A DNA stretch of 64,000 nt from contig CAMAXI010000007.1 in the NCBI GenBank assembly GCA_945862165.1, positions 1-64,000 of the forward strand. Direction: 5' to 3'. The DNA comes from Chryseobacterium gleum. Lineage in GTDB: Bacteria > Bacteroidota > Bacteroidia > Flavobacteriales_D > Crocinitomicaceae. The translations under genes were made by a program, and so were the position numbers. Shown one piece after another: positions 55,510 through 61,406 of the stretch (positions within the stretch are counted from its first letter, which is position 1; each line of letters begins with the position of its first letter). A model generated the notes under the pieces. It was not told the origin of the DNA. It saw only the letters and a list, made by a program, of their open reading frames with translations, and ran no database searches.

Positions 55510-58311
55510 TTAATGAGCATCTAACCAATTATCCGCTATTTTCACTTCTACTTCCATCGGAACAACCAGTTCGATAGCCGATTCCATGGCTTCTTGTACT
55601 AATTTTCGCATCAAATCTTGTTCCGAAATGTGTACATCAAACACCAACTCATCGTGTACTTGTAACAATAATTTAGATTGTACTTTTTGTTCTTGCATCG
55701 CTTTGTCAACTGCAATCATGGCAAGTTTTATGATATCTGCTGCAGAACCTTGAATCGGTGCATTAATTGCATTTCGTTCGGCATAACCACGTACAATCGC
55801 ATTCGCAGAATTAATATCTGGAAGGTATCTTCTACGTTTCATGATGGTTTCTACATAGCCCAATTCCCGAGCATCGTTTACCAAACCATCCATGAAGGAT
55901 TTTATGGTGCCAAATTGTTCGAAATAACGATCAATAATGGATTTTGCTTCGGTTCTAGAAATTCCTAAATTTTGCGCCAATCCAAATGGACCTTGTCCAT
56001 ACATAATTCCAAAGTTTACCGCTTTCGCAGCACTACGTTGGTCTTTAGTTACTTCTTCCAACGGAACATGAAATACATTTGCTGCCGTTGCTGTGTGAAT
56101 GTCTATTCCTTTTTGAAATGCGTCAATCATTCCAGGGTCTTTACTCAAGGCTGCAATGATACGTAATTCAATTTGAGAATAATCCGCCGCCATGATTTTG
56201 AATTCTGGTCCACGTGAAATAAAAGTCTTACGAATTTCTTTTCCTTTTTGGGTGCGAATTGGAATATTTTGCAAATTCGGATTATTGGAACTCAAACGTC
56301 CTGTTGCTGTAACCGTTTGCATGTAACTCGTGTGTACACGGTGATCGTTTGGATTCAACAACGTAGGAAGCGGATCTACGTAGGTTCCTTTTAGTTTTTT
56401 ATTTTGACGGTATTCTAAAATTTTCCCTATGATTGGGTGATCGTTACGGTATTGTTCCAAAGCATCCTCCGAAGTTTGGTATTGTCCTGTTTTGGTTTTC
56501 TTTGCTTTCGCATTGATTTTCATTTTTTCAAACAAGACTTCTCCCAATTGTTTCGGAGAATCTAAGTTGAAGTCTTCCCCAGAAATTTCTTTGATTTCTT
56601 TTTCCAGACTAATCGAGTCCTCCTCTAAACGTAAGGATAATGTTTTTAACCCTTCCACATCAATTGCAATTCCTTCTCGTTCCATGCGTTGAATGACATT
56701 AACCAAAGGCATTTCCATGGTGTGGAATAAATCTTTTAAATGTTCTTTTTGAATTTGGGGTGCTAAAATTTGATATAGTTGAAAGGTAATATCTGCGTCT
56801 TCACATGCATAATCGGAAACTTGCTTTGGATCTAAATCGCGCATGTTCCCCTGATTTTTTCCTTTTTTACCAATCAATTCGGTAATAGAAACCGGTTTAT
56901 ATTGTAAATAGTATTCCGCCAAAAAGTCCATGCTTTGTTTGGATTCAGGCTGAATTAAATAATGTGCAATCATCGTATCAAATAAGGATCCGCCAACCGC
57001 TATACCATAATTCTCCAAGACTTGTAAGTCGTACTTTAGGTTATGACCAATTTTTTCAATGGATTCATTTTCGAAGAAAGGCTTGAAGGAATCTACGATT
57101 AGTTGTGCTTCTTGTTGGTTTTCTGGGAGTGCGACATAAAATGCTTCCCGTTGATTGAATGAAAACGACATGCCTACCAACGCAGCGAGTAAAGCATCCA
57201 CAGCAGTTGTTTCTGTGTCAAAACAAACGGATGTTTGCTTTAATAACAATTCCAATAATTCTGCGCGTTCTTCGGAATTGGTGATTAAATGGTAATTCGG
57301 TTTTTCCGTAGCAATCGTTTTTAATTCAGAAGTTTGAACCGGAGTTTGAATTTCCAACAAACTTTGTGTTCCAAATAAATCAAATTGTCCTGTTTCAGTT
57401 ACCGGAGCAGTAACAGTTATTTCTTCTCCGATAACGCGTTTTGCCAACGTTCTAAATTCTAATTCCGTAAATACTTCCATGACCTTTTTTGCATCTGGTT
57501 CACACATAATGAGGTGTTCTGGATCAAAAGGTACATCGACATCCAGGATAATCGTTGCTAATTGTTTGGATAAACGACCTTGGTCGGCGAACTCAATTAC
57601 GTTTTCGCGCATTTTTCCTTTGAGTTGGTCCGCATTGGTGATGATGTTTTCCAAGGAACCATATTCTTGGATTAATTTTTTAGAAGTCTTTTCTCCAATT
57701 CCAGGTATTCCAGGAATATTATCGGAAGCGTCTCCCCATAATCCAAGGATGTCAATGACTTTTAAGGGATGGTCGACCTCAAATTTTTCACATACTTCTT
57801 TTATTCCCATAATTGAAGCTGGATCACCACCACGACCAGGTTTGTAAATAAATATTTTTTCTGATACCAACTGACCAAAATCCTTATCCGGAGTCATCAT
57901 GTAGGTATAATACCCTTCTTTTTCTGCTACTTTTGCTAAGGTTCCAATGACATCATCTGCTTCAAATCCCGATTTCAATAAAATAGGAATGTTAAATGCT
58001 TCAATGATTTTTTTGATTGGATCAATCATCGCACGCAAATCTTCCGGCATTTCCTGACGATTCGCTTTATACGCTGCAAAGTCTTCCTGACGATTCGTTG
58101 CCCCACCAGGTGCGTCAAACACCACCGCTAAATGTGTTGGTTGCTCTTTTTTAATTACATCAATCAGTGCATTTGTAAAACCAAAAGCAGCAGACGTATT
58201 TTGTCCTTTGGAATTCACACGTGGATTCTTCGCAAACGCAAAATACGCTCTGTAAATCAATGCAAAAGCATCTAATAGGAATAATTTTTTATCGTGTACT
58301 GGAGTAATCAT
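55510..58311 (-). CDS. polA: DNA polymerase I
   Basis: 5'-nuclease domain (KLFLLDAFALIYRAYFAF), 3'-5' exonuclease-like region (VCFDTETTAVDALLA), polymerase motifs (ADYSQIELRIIAALS, DQRSAAKAVNFGIMYGQG, QVHDELVFDV). Confidence 0.96.
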   Translation of the reverse strand: MITPVHDKKLFLLDAFALIYRAYFAFAKNPRVNSKGQNTSAAFGFTNALIDVIKKEQPTHLAVVFDAPGGATNRQEDFAAYKANRQEMPEDLRAMIDPIKKIIEAFNIPILLKSGFEADDVIGTLAKVAEKEGYYTYMMTPDKDFGQLVSEKIFIYKPGRGGDPASIMGIKEVCEKFEVDHPLKVIDILGLWGDASDNIPGIPGIGEKTSKKLIQEYGSLENIITNADQLKGKMRENVIEFADQGRLSKQLATIILDVDVPFDPEHLIMCEPDAKKVMEVFTELEFRTLAKRVIGEEITVTAPVTETGQFDLFGTQSLLEIQTPVQTSELKTIATEKPNYHLITNSEERAELLELLLKQTSVCFDTETTAVDALLAALVGMSFSFNQREAFYVALPENQQEAQLIVDSFKPFFENESIEKIGHNLKYDLQVLENYGIAVGGSLFDTMIAHYLIQPESKQSMDFLAEYYLQYKPVSITELIGKKGKNQGNMRDLDPKQVSDYACEDADITFQLYQILAPQIQKEHLKDLFHTMEMPLVNVIQRMEREGIAIDVEGLKTLSLRLEEDSISLEKEIKEISGEDFNLDSPKQLGEVLFEKMKINAKAKKTKTGQYQTSEDALEQYRNDHPIIGKILEYRQNKKLKGTYVDPLPTLLNPNDHRVHTSYMQTVTATGRLSSNNPNLQNIPIRTQKGKEIRKTFISRGPEFKIMAADYSQIELRIIAALSKDPGMIDAFQKGIDIHTATAANVFHVPLEEVTKDQRSAAKAVNFGIMYGQGPFGLAQNLGISRTEAKSIIDRYFEQFGTIKSFMDGLVNDARELGYVETIMKRRRYLPDINSANAIVRGYAERNAINAPIQGSAADIIKLAMIAVDKAMQEQKVQSKLLLQVHDELVFDVHISEQDLMRKLVQEAMESAIELVVPMEVEVKIADNWLDAH

Positions 58312-58350
58312 TTTGGGAATTATGAATTGTTGTTTTATGGATTATGATTT
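58252..58350. repeat. Direct repeat copy 1 (polA 5' end and leader)
   Basis: CTAATAGGAATAATTTTTTATCGTGTACTGGAGTAATCATTT...ATGGATTATGATTT. Confidence 0.88.
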
Positions 58351-58370
58351 TCTATAACAAATATACAGCT

Positions 58371-59528
58371 TTAACGGGCAAATTCATGCCAAGGAATCAT
58401 TTCACAATTTTGTCTTACATAATGCTCGTTTCCTGTATAAATCATTTTTTTGACCACTATTCTATTTTCCGCTTTTTTTTCAAAGTAATCCAAACCTTTC
58501 ATGTGTTTACTCATGATTGTTGCGGTCGACTTTATTTCATGGGTGATTAACTTTTGATTTTCGGAATAAACTAAATCGATTTCGTTGCCGACTGAATCCC
58601 TCCAAAACCAGCTATCAACGACTTGATTCTTATGATACATACGTTTTATGTGTTCTGAAATCATCATATTTTCAAATAATGCTCCTTTTATTGAACTAGC
58701 TAGCAGGTAATCATAATCGTTTATTCCTAACAAATGGCACAATAAGCCGGTATCGTAAAAATAAATTTTAGGAGATTTTACCAATCGTTTACTGAAATTT
58801 TCAAAATAGGGTTGTAAGGTAAAAACGATGTAACTACTTTCTAAAATAGACAACCAAGATTTTGCCGTTGGTTGGGAAATCCCACAAGCATTTGCAAGTT
58901 CATTGAGGTTGAGTAGTTGTCCTGCGCGGGCTGCTAATAAGGAAAAGTATTTTTTAAATAATGCTAAATTTTTTACTTCTAATAGTTCTGTTAAATCACG
59001 TTGTACGTATGTTTCAATGTAATTGGCATAAAATTTCGAAGAGTTGATTCCACGACTGTAAATAGCTGGATAAAATCCTTTTAACATGCAATTTATATAG
59101 TCTGTTTCTAATAAATTCTCACTTTTTAACTCTTGAAAATCAAAAGGAAATAATCGAAATAATGCTACTCTACCAGCTAAACTTTGTGTAATATTTTGCA
59201 TCAAATGGAAGTTTTGAGAGCCGGACAATATATAGTGTCCCATGCTGTTTTCTTCATCTACCTTCGTTTGTAAATATGAAAATAACGTGGGCACGCGTTG
59301 GGCTTCATCAATAATTGTCTTTCCAGAATAGCGCTTTAAAAATCCATTAGGATCCTCCAATGCAAACTCACGTTGATCTAGATTTTCTAAATTCACATAT
59401 TCGTATTCAGAAAATGTGTTTTTTAAAAAAGTCGTTTTCCCAGATTGTCGAGGTCCTGTGACTGCTATAACAAGATATTTATCGATTAATTCACGGATAC
59501 TTTCTAGTATGTTTCGTTGCAATTTCAT
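58371..59528 (-). CDS. AAA_14/DUF4143 family ATP-binding protein
   Basis: YLVIAVTGPRQSGKTTFLKNTF (P-loop), KTIIDEAQRVPTLFSYLQTKVDE, ILSGSQNFHLMQNITQSLAGRV, DUF4143 C-terminal region. Confidence 0.92.
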   Translation of the reverse strand: MKLQRNILESIRELIDKYLVIAVTGPRQSGKTTFLKNTFSEYEYVNLENLDQREFALEDPNGFLKRYSGKTIIDEAQRVPTLFSYLQTKVDEENSMGHYILSGSQNFHLMQNITQSLAGRVALFRLFPFDFQELKSENLLETDYINCMLKGFYPAIYSRGINSSKFYANYIETYVQRDLTELLEVKNLALFKKYFSLLAARAGQLLNLNELANACGISQPTAKSWLSILESSYIVFTLQPYFENFSKRLVKSPKIYFYDTGLLCHLLGINDYDYLLASSIKGALFENMMISEHIKRMYHKNQVVDSWFWRDSVGNEIDLVYSENQKLITHEIKSTATIMSKHMKGLDYFEKKAENRIVVKKMIYTGNEHYVRQNCEMIPWHEFAR

Positions 59529-59545
59529 ATAACAATAGTACGACT

Positions 59546-59624
59546 TATTTTGAAAATACACAAGTTGTATTTTGAAATTACATGCATTCTATTTTGAAAA
59601 TACACAAGTTTCATTTTGAAATTG
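59546..59624. repeat. Two-unit upstream repeat with TTTTGAAA boxes (35-nt units, 44-bp period)
   Basis: TATTTTGAAAATACACAAGTTGTATTTTGAAATTA (59546-59580) and TATTTTGAAAATACACAAGTTTCATTTTGAAATTG (59590-59624); 3 differences in 35. Confidence 0.92.
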
Positions 59625-59646
59625 CGCGTTTTTTTAAAGTTGTTAC

Positions 59647-59744
59647 TTAAATCAATTTAAAAGTACCTAATAGAAATAATTTTTTATCGTGAACTGGAGT
59701 AATCATTTATATAGTTATGAGTTATAAATTATGGATTATGATTT
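59647..59744 (-). pseudogene. Truncated polA 5' remnant (direct repeat copy 2)
   Basis: Minus strand ATG at 59706 encodes MITPVHDKKLFLLGTFKLI-stop versus PolA MITPVHDKKLFLLDAFALIYRA; nucleotide core 59667-59708 matches 58272-58313 at 40/42. Confidence 0.9.
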
Positions 59745-59841
59745 GATTGAATCATACGCAGCGGGAAGCAAGTGTTTTGGTTCGATTTAGTTTACTTTTC
59801 ATTTATTTTCTGTTACTTTTCAAAATTGTCATCCCCCTCGG

Positions 59842-59941
59842 TCCCCCTTCAAAGGGGGAAGCAGTGTTTTGCATCAAAATCACGCCTTCGCTCGTCACTT
59901 CATCACTTCGTCACTTCGGTCCCTGAGGTTCTCAAAGGGAC
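59842..59941. repeat. REP-like palindromic repeats downstream of cysS
   Basis: TCCCCCTT-CA-AAGGGGGA palindrome (59842-59859) and GTCCCTGAGGTTCTCAAAGGGAC (59919-59941), separated by TCACTTC-type short repeats. Confidence 0.65.
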
Positions 59942-59942
59942 A

Positions 59943-61406
59943 TCACTTCCAAGTCGTTCCGTCCTTCCCATCTTTCACCACCAATCCAGCCGCAGCTAAT
60001 CCATCGCGAATCTTATCCGAAGTTCCCCAATCTTTGTTCTCACGTGCTTGTTGACGTAAATTCAAGACTAAGTCCATCACACCTTCTAATTTTGAGTCGT
60101 CAACTGCGCTACTTAAAGTAGCCAATCCAAGTACATCAAAAACAAAGGCATTCACTTCTTTGGTTAAGATTTCTAAATCAGTTTGTGTAATTGTTGCTTT
60201 ACCTTCTTTGATAGTGTTAATCACTTTAACTGTTTCAAATAAGTTTGCAACTAATATCGGCGCATTGAAGTCGTCGTTCATGGCATCGTAAAAAGAAGCG
60301 ACTAAACCTTGCGCATTTATTGAAGAACTTTCGCTAGTTGTTAGATTTGCCAAATCTTTTACAGCATCCATTAATTTTTCAAATCCTTTTTCCGCAGCGT
60401 TTAATGCCTCACTGGTAAAATCAAGTGTACTGCGATAATGTGCTTGCATCATAAAGAAACGAACAACCATTGGATGGTAACCGCGCTCTAATAAATCCGA
60501 ACCTCCGTTGAATAATTCATTTGGTAATAAGGTATTACCGGTAGATTTAGACATCTTTTTACCATTCAAGGTTAACATGTTTCCATGCATCCAATAATTT
60601 ACAGGAGATTTACCTGTAGATGCACAACCTTGTGCGATTTCACATTCGTGGTGAGGGAATTTCAAATCCATTCCGCCTCCATGAATATCAAACGTTTCTC
60701 CTAAATATTTAGTACTCATTGCCGAACATTCCAAATGCCAACCTGGAAAACCTATTCCCCAAGGAGAAGGCCATTTCATAATATGTTCTGGTGAAGCATT
60801 TTTCCAAAGAGCAAAATCCAAGGAGTTACGTTTTTCATCCTGACCATCCAAGTCACGGGTACCCGCAATTAAATCCTCAATTTTTCTTCCGGATAATTCT
60901 CCATACGGGAATTGCTCGTTGTATGTGTTGACATCAAAATAAACCGAACCATTCACTTCGTATGCGTAGCCGTTTTCAAGGATGGTCTTAATCATTTCAA
61001 TTTGTTCGATGATATGACCCGTTGCAGTTGGTTCGATGCTTGGTGCGTGATTATTGAATTGACGAAGAACATCGTGAAAATCCAAGGTGTACTTTTGTAC
61101 AATTTCCATTGGTTCAACTTGCTCTAAACGTGCTTTTTTAGCAATTTTATCTTCTCCTTCATCTGCATCGTTCTCTAAATGACCGACATCGGTAATGTTT
61201 CGAACATAACGAACCTTATACCCGATATGTAACAGATAACGATATACCGTATCAAAAGAAATAAATGTTCTACAATTTCCAAGGTGAACGTAATTGTATA
61301 CTGTTGGTCCACAAACATATAATCCGACAAAATTTGAATGTATAGGAACAAATTGTTCTTTTTTTCCAGAATGGCTATTGTAAATGTGTAGTGTAGAGTT
61401 TGTCAT
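59943..61406 (-). CDS. cysS: Cysteinyl-tRNA synthetase
   Basis: [70 protein letters not shown]. Confidence 0.96.

Follow-up and report, generated by a model that had tools for sequence, protein, structure and literature searches.

We analyzed a 64,000-nt window of a Chryseobacterium gleum assembly (GCA_945862165.1, contig CAMAXI010000007.1, positions 1 to 64,000), in which a gene for an AAA_14/DUF4143 ATPase lies between cysS and polA and is flanked by two copies of the polA start. We propose, with a probability of roughly 60%, that the ATPase gene and the repeat array before it form a one-gene mobile module that was imported together with a polA leader, its right end joined by homology and its left end illegitimately. 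The features of the locus are as follows, with left and right given in the direction of transcription:

59943..61406, minus strand: cysS, the upstream neighbor; the cysS-polA order is ancestral in several related genera
59648..59744, minus strand: left target copy, apparently what remains of the former polA start, with its first ~20 codons and a leader of the sister-species type
59624..59652, minus strand: left junction, where polA-derived ..TTGATTTA joins the array flank
59546..59623, minus strand: 22-bp tandem AT-rich array of the TGTAATTTCAAAATA type
58371..59528, minus strand: AAA_14/DUF4143 gene, 385 aa, ATG at 59528 and stop at 58371; PADLOC PDC-S01
58351..58370, minus strand: 20-bp spacer from the ATPase stop to the right copy, with promoter-like TATATTTG; also in G007
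58253..58350, minus strand: right target copy, which gives the functional polA its leader and start
55510..58311, minus strand: polA, intact, 933 aa

The two copies form a direct repeat of ~98 bp (58253–58350 and 59648–59744) that is 82.7% identical when gaps are allowed. A repeat search of the window returned a core at 84% identity (58253–58328 against 59648–59723), and the exact 16-mer TTATGGATTATGATTT occurs in both copies, at 58335–58350 and 59729–59744. Chance is ruled out as the source of the repeat, given that its best ungapped placement matches at 71 of 98 bases and that 60 shuffles in two-base blocks gave at most 49. An assembly artefact is likewise ruled out by the same arrangement in a second assembly, where contig CAMBBW010000238.1 (G245 C238) has an identical layout, with both copies present, at a DNA identity of 99.5%. 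That contig (L070, L153) is binned in a metagenome-assembled genome of another genus, which also has a polA of its own, and probably represents contaminating DNA of the window's species. The initial annotation of this DNA, which described a polA start and leader repeated as a truncated copy reading MITPVHDKKLFLLGTFKLI before a stop, is borne out in these respects. It also agrees with our analysis in that the ATPase is the sole gene between the copies and that no integrase, transposase or terminal inverted repeat is evident there: we found no recombinase gene in the insert, and its inverted repeats do not pair the insert ends. At the left junction TTGATT is common to polA and the array flank (the flank in G005, which has no remnant, reads CTTGATTAAAGTAACAACTTT) and would represent microhomology, and the TATATTTG in the 20-bp spacer may be a promoter-like box.

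Comparison with sister species suggests which of the two polA starts came first. Over the 36 bp preceding the ATG the remnant shares 30–32 bases with G004, G008 and G010, whereas the in-use copy shares 19–21. The in-use copy is preceded by AAAGCTGTATATTTGTTATAG, which recurs with one change downstream of the ATPase in G007. Based on the leader match to the sisters and on AAAGCTGTATATTTGTTATAG behind the G007 ATPase, the remnant appears to be the old polA start and the present leader appears to be linked to the ATPase. Empty sites are found in the window's genus: cysS and polA are 87 bp apart in G006 and 151 bp apart in G003, with no insert between them. Together with the native leader of the remnant, they support the earlier proposal of a ~1.4-kb one-gene insertion at polA that left the old start behind.

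The locus itself has a longer history. Closely spaced cysS then polA is the gene order in several related genera, and other gaps in the genus hold unrelated genes, encoding proteins of 187 aa and 218 aa, a KilA-N-like protein of 277 aa and a RhuM-like protein of 348 aa (the last two names are our reading of the sequences). Dispersed repeats resembling repetitive extragenic palindromic elements, CCCCCTTTGAAGGGGG, flank the varying gap genes (window 59830–59880; G001, G004, G005 and G008–G010), and the gap looks like a hotspot of gene gain and loss. Orthologs of the ATPase with 79–90% amino acid identity lie directly 3′ of cysS in G011, G020 and G078, and in G004 and G005 the array and the old polA promoter are kept while the ATPase is gone. 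Thus, the presence of the ATPase at cysS-polA is older than the insertion event in the window. An array and old promoter without the gene, and sister leaders that resemble the remnant leader, would also fit a clade ancestor that had both polA starts and the ATPase, with the sisters losing the ATPase by recombination between the repeats. We regard such a vertical ancestral duplication as very improbable, as the coding part of the remnant carries ~6 changes in 57–60 nt whereas fourfold sites differ by 40–48% between the window genome (G000) and its sisters, and a remnant that old, being untranslated, would be expected to show much more decay. The same comparison places the insertion event after the sister split.

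Among ~70 polA upstream regions, just two contain a remnant of the genome's own polA start: that of the window genome (E 9e-19) and that of G007, in which the remnant is decayed (E 8e-5). Both starts in relatives lacking the ATPase would have spoken against an insertion, and among the relatives G007 alone has a second start. There (L041, G007:C28) the decayed start lies between an orthologous ATPase and the RhuM-like gene, which suggests an independent insertion at the same place. Site-specific integration at polA is ruled out by the rarity of such remnants (two genomes of ~70 regions) and by the many different genes that the family duplicates.

The window protein matches AAA_14 (E 1.6e-28) and DUF4143 (E 1.1e-47) in Pfam, both above the cut-off, and the PADLOC PDC-S01 profile (E 1e-100). 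PDC-S01 is described as an ATPase fused to the PD-(D/E)XK superfamily and the fourth most common system in prokaryotes, with validation pending for most PDCs (PMC12988326). The predicted domain build is an AAA_14 ATPase, a helix-turn-helix, placed at about residues 207–231 by our reading of sequence and secondary structure, and a PD-(D/E)XK nuclease. The Walker motifs are intact (GPRQSGKTT at 25–33 and DE at 74–75) and are conserved across an alignment of 152 homologs, in which the nuclease residues E286, E316, D318, E331 and K333 are 98–100% conserved. An AlphaFold2 model (predicted local distance difference test 91.7, predicted template modeling [TM] score 0.90) has as its best fold matches a Pyrococcus Walker ATPase, clamp loaders and the CARF-nuclease Can2; the match to the Pyrococcus protein (2qen) is weak (TM 0.43–0.47) and those to Can2 are at the level of fold only. 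Sequence searches of solved structures, NCBIfam and PHROGs gave no match. The literature on DUF4143/COG1373 held nothing relevant, and the open-access literature, to which the search was confined with subscription papers outside it, held no report linking DUF4143 or PDC-S01 to mobility, arrays or target duplication. Distant relatives occur in 339 plasmid records, all below 60% identity, and in four phages, and so no recent vector is seen. At least nine AAA_14/DUF4143 genes are present in G272, a record filed under Coxiellaceae (L217, L237–L244), one of them with an internal TAA that is read through; this is a possible burst of the family.

Duplications of this kind are not confined to polA. 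In a survey of homologs chosen by similarity to one protein, with one genome sampled per species, flanking direct repeats were found at 16 of 73 family loci and at 4 of 273 control open reading frames, which were taken from the same contigs with intergenic length unmatched (p = 9e-9); when repeats of the arrays and palindromes are excluded, 13 of the 73 remain (p = 8e-7). The duplications span 24–208 bp and affect the 3′ ends of rnhA (in several species), sufD, asnS and a hydrolase gene, a leader of purM, and a terminator next to a tRNA gene (rnhA, sufD, asnS and purM being names that we read from the translations). Other AAA_14/DUF4143 genes flanked by duplicated gene ends, for which the initial annotation had recommended a search, therefore exist in several genomes. 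In 12 of 16 duplicated loci, a set combining the first survey with later loci (the window, L277 and L279), no more than 35 bp separate the ATPase stop from the start of the right copy; in the window the copy starts at +21. For the window, sufD and rnhA, a long target repeat flanks the gene and is absent at the empty site. In Polaribacter the right sufD fragment and the DNA downstream are collinear with an insert-free relative over 1042 bp (91.7%), and the rnhA case shows the same over 1296 bp (88%); for both genes it is the remnant side that the empty site matches. The window genome has a second family member (L005, G000:C2:207922-211950) with a 39-bp flanking direct repeat (82%) near a putative tRNA gene, possibly another target duplication.

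Members of the family also occur at different chromosomal sites with nearly constant edges. ATPases 80–98% identical are found amid unrelated flanks, and in such pairs, from whose lists loci fetched twice from the same place were not all removed, the match typically begins ~80–185 bp ahead of the ATG and ends ~10 bp or less from the stop. For G007/G011 (98.1%) and L175/L283 (96.9%) it is limited to a stretch that begins 94–98 bp ahead of the ATG and ends at the stop (+0 and −2 bp), with unrelated flanks. In one group the match ends 1–31 bp short of the stop, and the last codons there thus appear to derive from local DNA. Fourfold sites of G007 and G011 are 92% identical in the ATPase and 74% identical in cysS and polA (p = 6e-6), which indicates that the ATPase moved recently. 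These edges bear on the possibility that ordinary gene transfer, by homology-facilitated illegitimate recombination or transformation, brought in a useful gene and that the ATPase is passive in mobility. Such transfer is a known process that leaves displaced gene remnants, as proposed for immunity arrays of the Vibrio type VI secretion system (PMC5361080), and it is consistent with the other genes that accumulate in the cysS-polA gap and with the decayed G007 start beside a RhuM-like gene. We nevertheless find it unlikely, since it predicts random ends, whereas the junctions cluster at the ATPase stop and the array in different phyla.

The upstream repeats are themselves a property of the family. 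In the window, TTTCAAAAT recurs exactly at −27, −49, −71 and −93 relative to the ATPase ATG. Strong short self-repeats are found upstream of 42% of 80 homologs drawn from GTDB genomes, compared with 0.9% of 460 other genes (rank test p = 1e-10). Bacteroidota members have 22–23-bp arrays resembling that of the window. Among mostly non-Bacteroidota homologs, 17 of 41 reach a palindrome score of at least 11, compared with 12 of 240 controls (p = 4e-9); GAAGTTgAACTTC is a common core of these palindromes. Some members have repeats on both sides of the gene. The repeat sequence seems to track the protein subgroup: subgroup-specific forms such as ATTCCGAAATTACATA, or TAGGAATT..ATTCCTA, occur upstream and sometimes also 3′ of the stop (window 59546–59623; L059–L066, L088, L089 and L230). 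The array may be the protein's own binding site.

The origin of the two copies distinguishes import from duplication in place. A nuclease that nicked the target in a widely staggered manner, followed by gap-fill repair, would produce both copies from one target, and the defined module edges and the direct repeats on both sides are what such a target-site duplication would leave. So is the low divergence at sufD (L166), where the copies differ at 3 of 125 positions and the nearest relative differs at 11. However, when seven coding duplications are pooled, 44 of the 70 differences are synonymous and 26 nonsynonymous, whereas a synonymous share of 35% would be expected from duplication with later decay (P = 1e-6, assuming that the remnant has been neutral since the event). 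Given this excess, one copy would usually be an imported functional allele. At rnhA (L168) the functional copy differs from the empty relative at 7 of 104 positions and the remnant at 4, and the window has a sister-like leader in the remnant but not in the in-use copy. Thus, a same-allele origin is compatible with sufD, while rnhA, the window and the pooled test point to an imported allele. We consider target-site duplication improbable, and favor import with part of the flanking gene on account of the synonymous excess and the L168 comparison.

In detail, the left edge of the proposed module would coincide with the 22-bp array or lie just beyond it, and on the right the module would end with the stop codon of the ATPase. 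The module would have entered the cysS-polA gap within a fragment that also bore the polA leader. The right side would have been joined by homology at polA, leaving polA intact, and the left side illegitimately in the resident polA, ~60 nt into the gene at TTGATT, with the resident start left as a remnant. We infer that the nuclease makes the break and that one-sided homology is the route. This proposal draws direct support from the module edges, the relatives at different sites, the duplications in many genomes, the native leader of the remnant and the ATPase-linked leader in use. A search by sliding identity resolved no sharp donor switch within polA, the 5′ 450 bp of which are conserved in all species. 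Several observations weigh against the proposal. The coding start of the in-use polA is of the sister-clade type (50–53 of 54 bases), and the donor DNA thus need not pass beyond the leader. Most family loci have no detectable duplication, and the divergence at L166 also fits plain duplication at insertion. A mirror event, in which a sister-type remnant fragment on the cysS side was joined before a resident ATPase, would lead to an identical arrangement.

The PDC-S01 gene family behaves like an unrecognized one-gene mobile element. More tentatively, and with less confidence than in the import at polA, we suggest that it could be autonomous: the protein would bind its own 5′ array or palindrome, cut intergenic or gene-end targets and copy the array and gene in, leaving long target duplications. 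A defense candidate that is filed by genomic association and has been seen tens of thousands of times may sit in islands through its own mobility. With its ends defined, a candidate binding site that is conserved between phyla and a collection of insertion scars, the family can now be tested for mobility directly. The essential-gene neighborhood cysS-polA takes repeated insertions while polA is restored, and a single-protein model can be offered for the puzzle of insertion with long target duplication.

A comparison can also be drawn with free-standing homing endonuclease genes, which are selfish nuclease genes that lie between genes and are copied with flanking sequence. The window protein differs from them in being an AAA ATPase with a PD-(D/E)XK nuclease, and Pfam found no LAGLIDADG, HNH or GIY-YIG domain in it. 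By profile it is a member of PDC-S01, with the same AAA_14 and DUF4143 domains; phage defense is the candidate role of PDC-S01, and the available part of its description (PMC12988326) is silent on mobility, on duplication of targets and on upstream arrays. The pattern seen here matches insertion with long target duplication, which is known from restriction-modification genes of Helicobacter pylori (Nobusato et al. 2000, as cited in PMC1643837 and PMC3031569). As far as these citing accounts go, the similarities are a short gene unit between core genes, long direct target repeats, and a nuclease cargo without transposase or integrase, whereas here there is a single ATPase-nuclease gene with its own array or palindrome, a right edge at the stop codon, and a distribution over many phyla. 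The closest described process is homology-facilitated illegitimate recombination (PMC3240628, PMC5361080), which shares one homologous end, one illegitimate end and a displaced gene remnant; there, however, no fixed border of the incoming gene determines where the illegitimate end falls.
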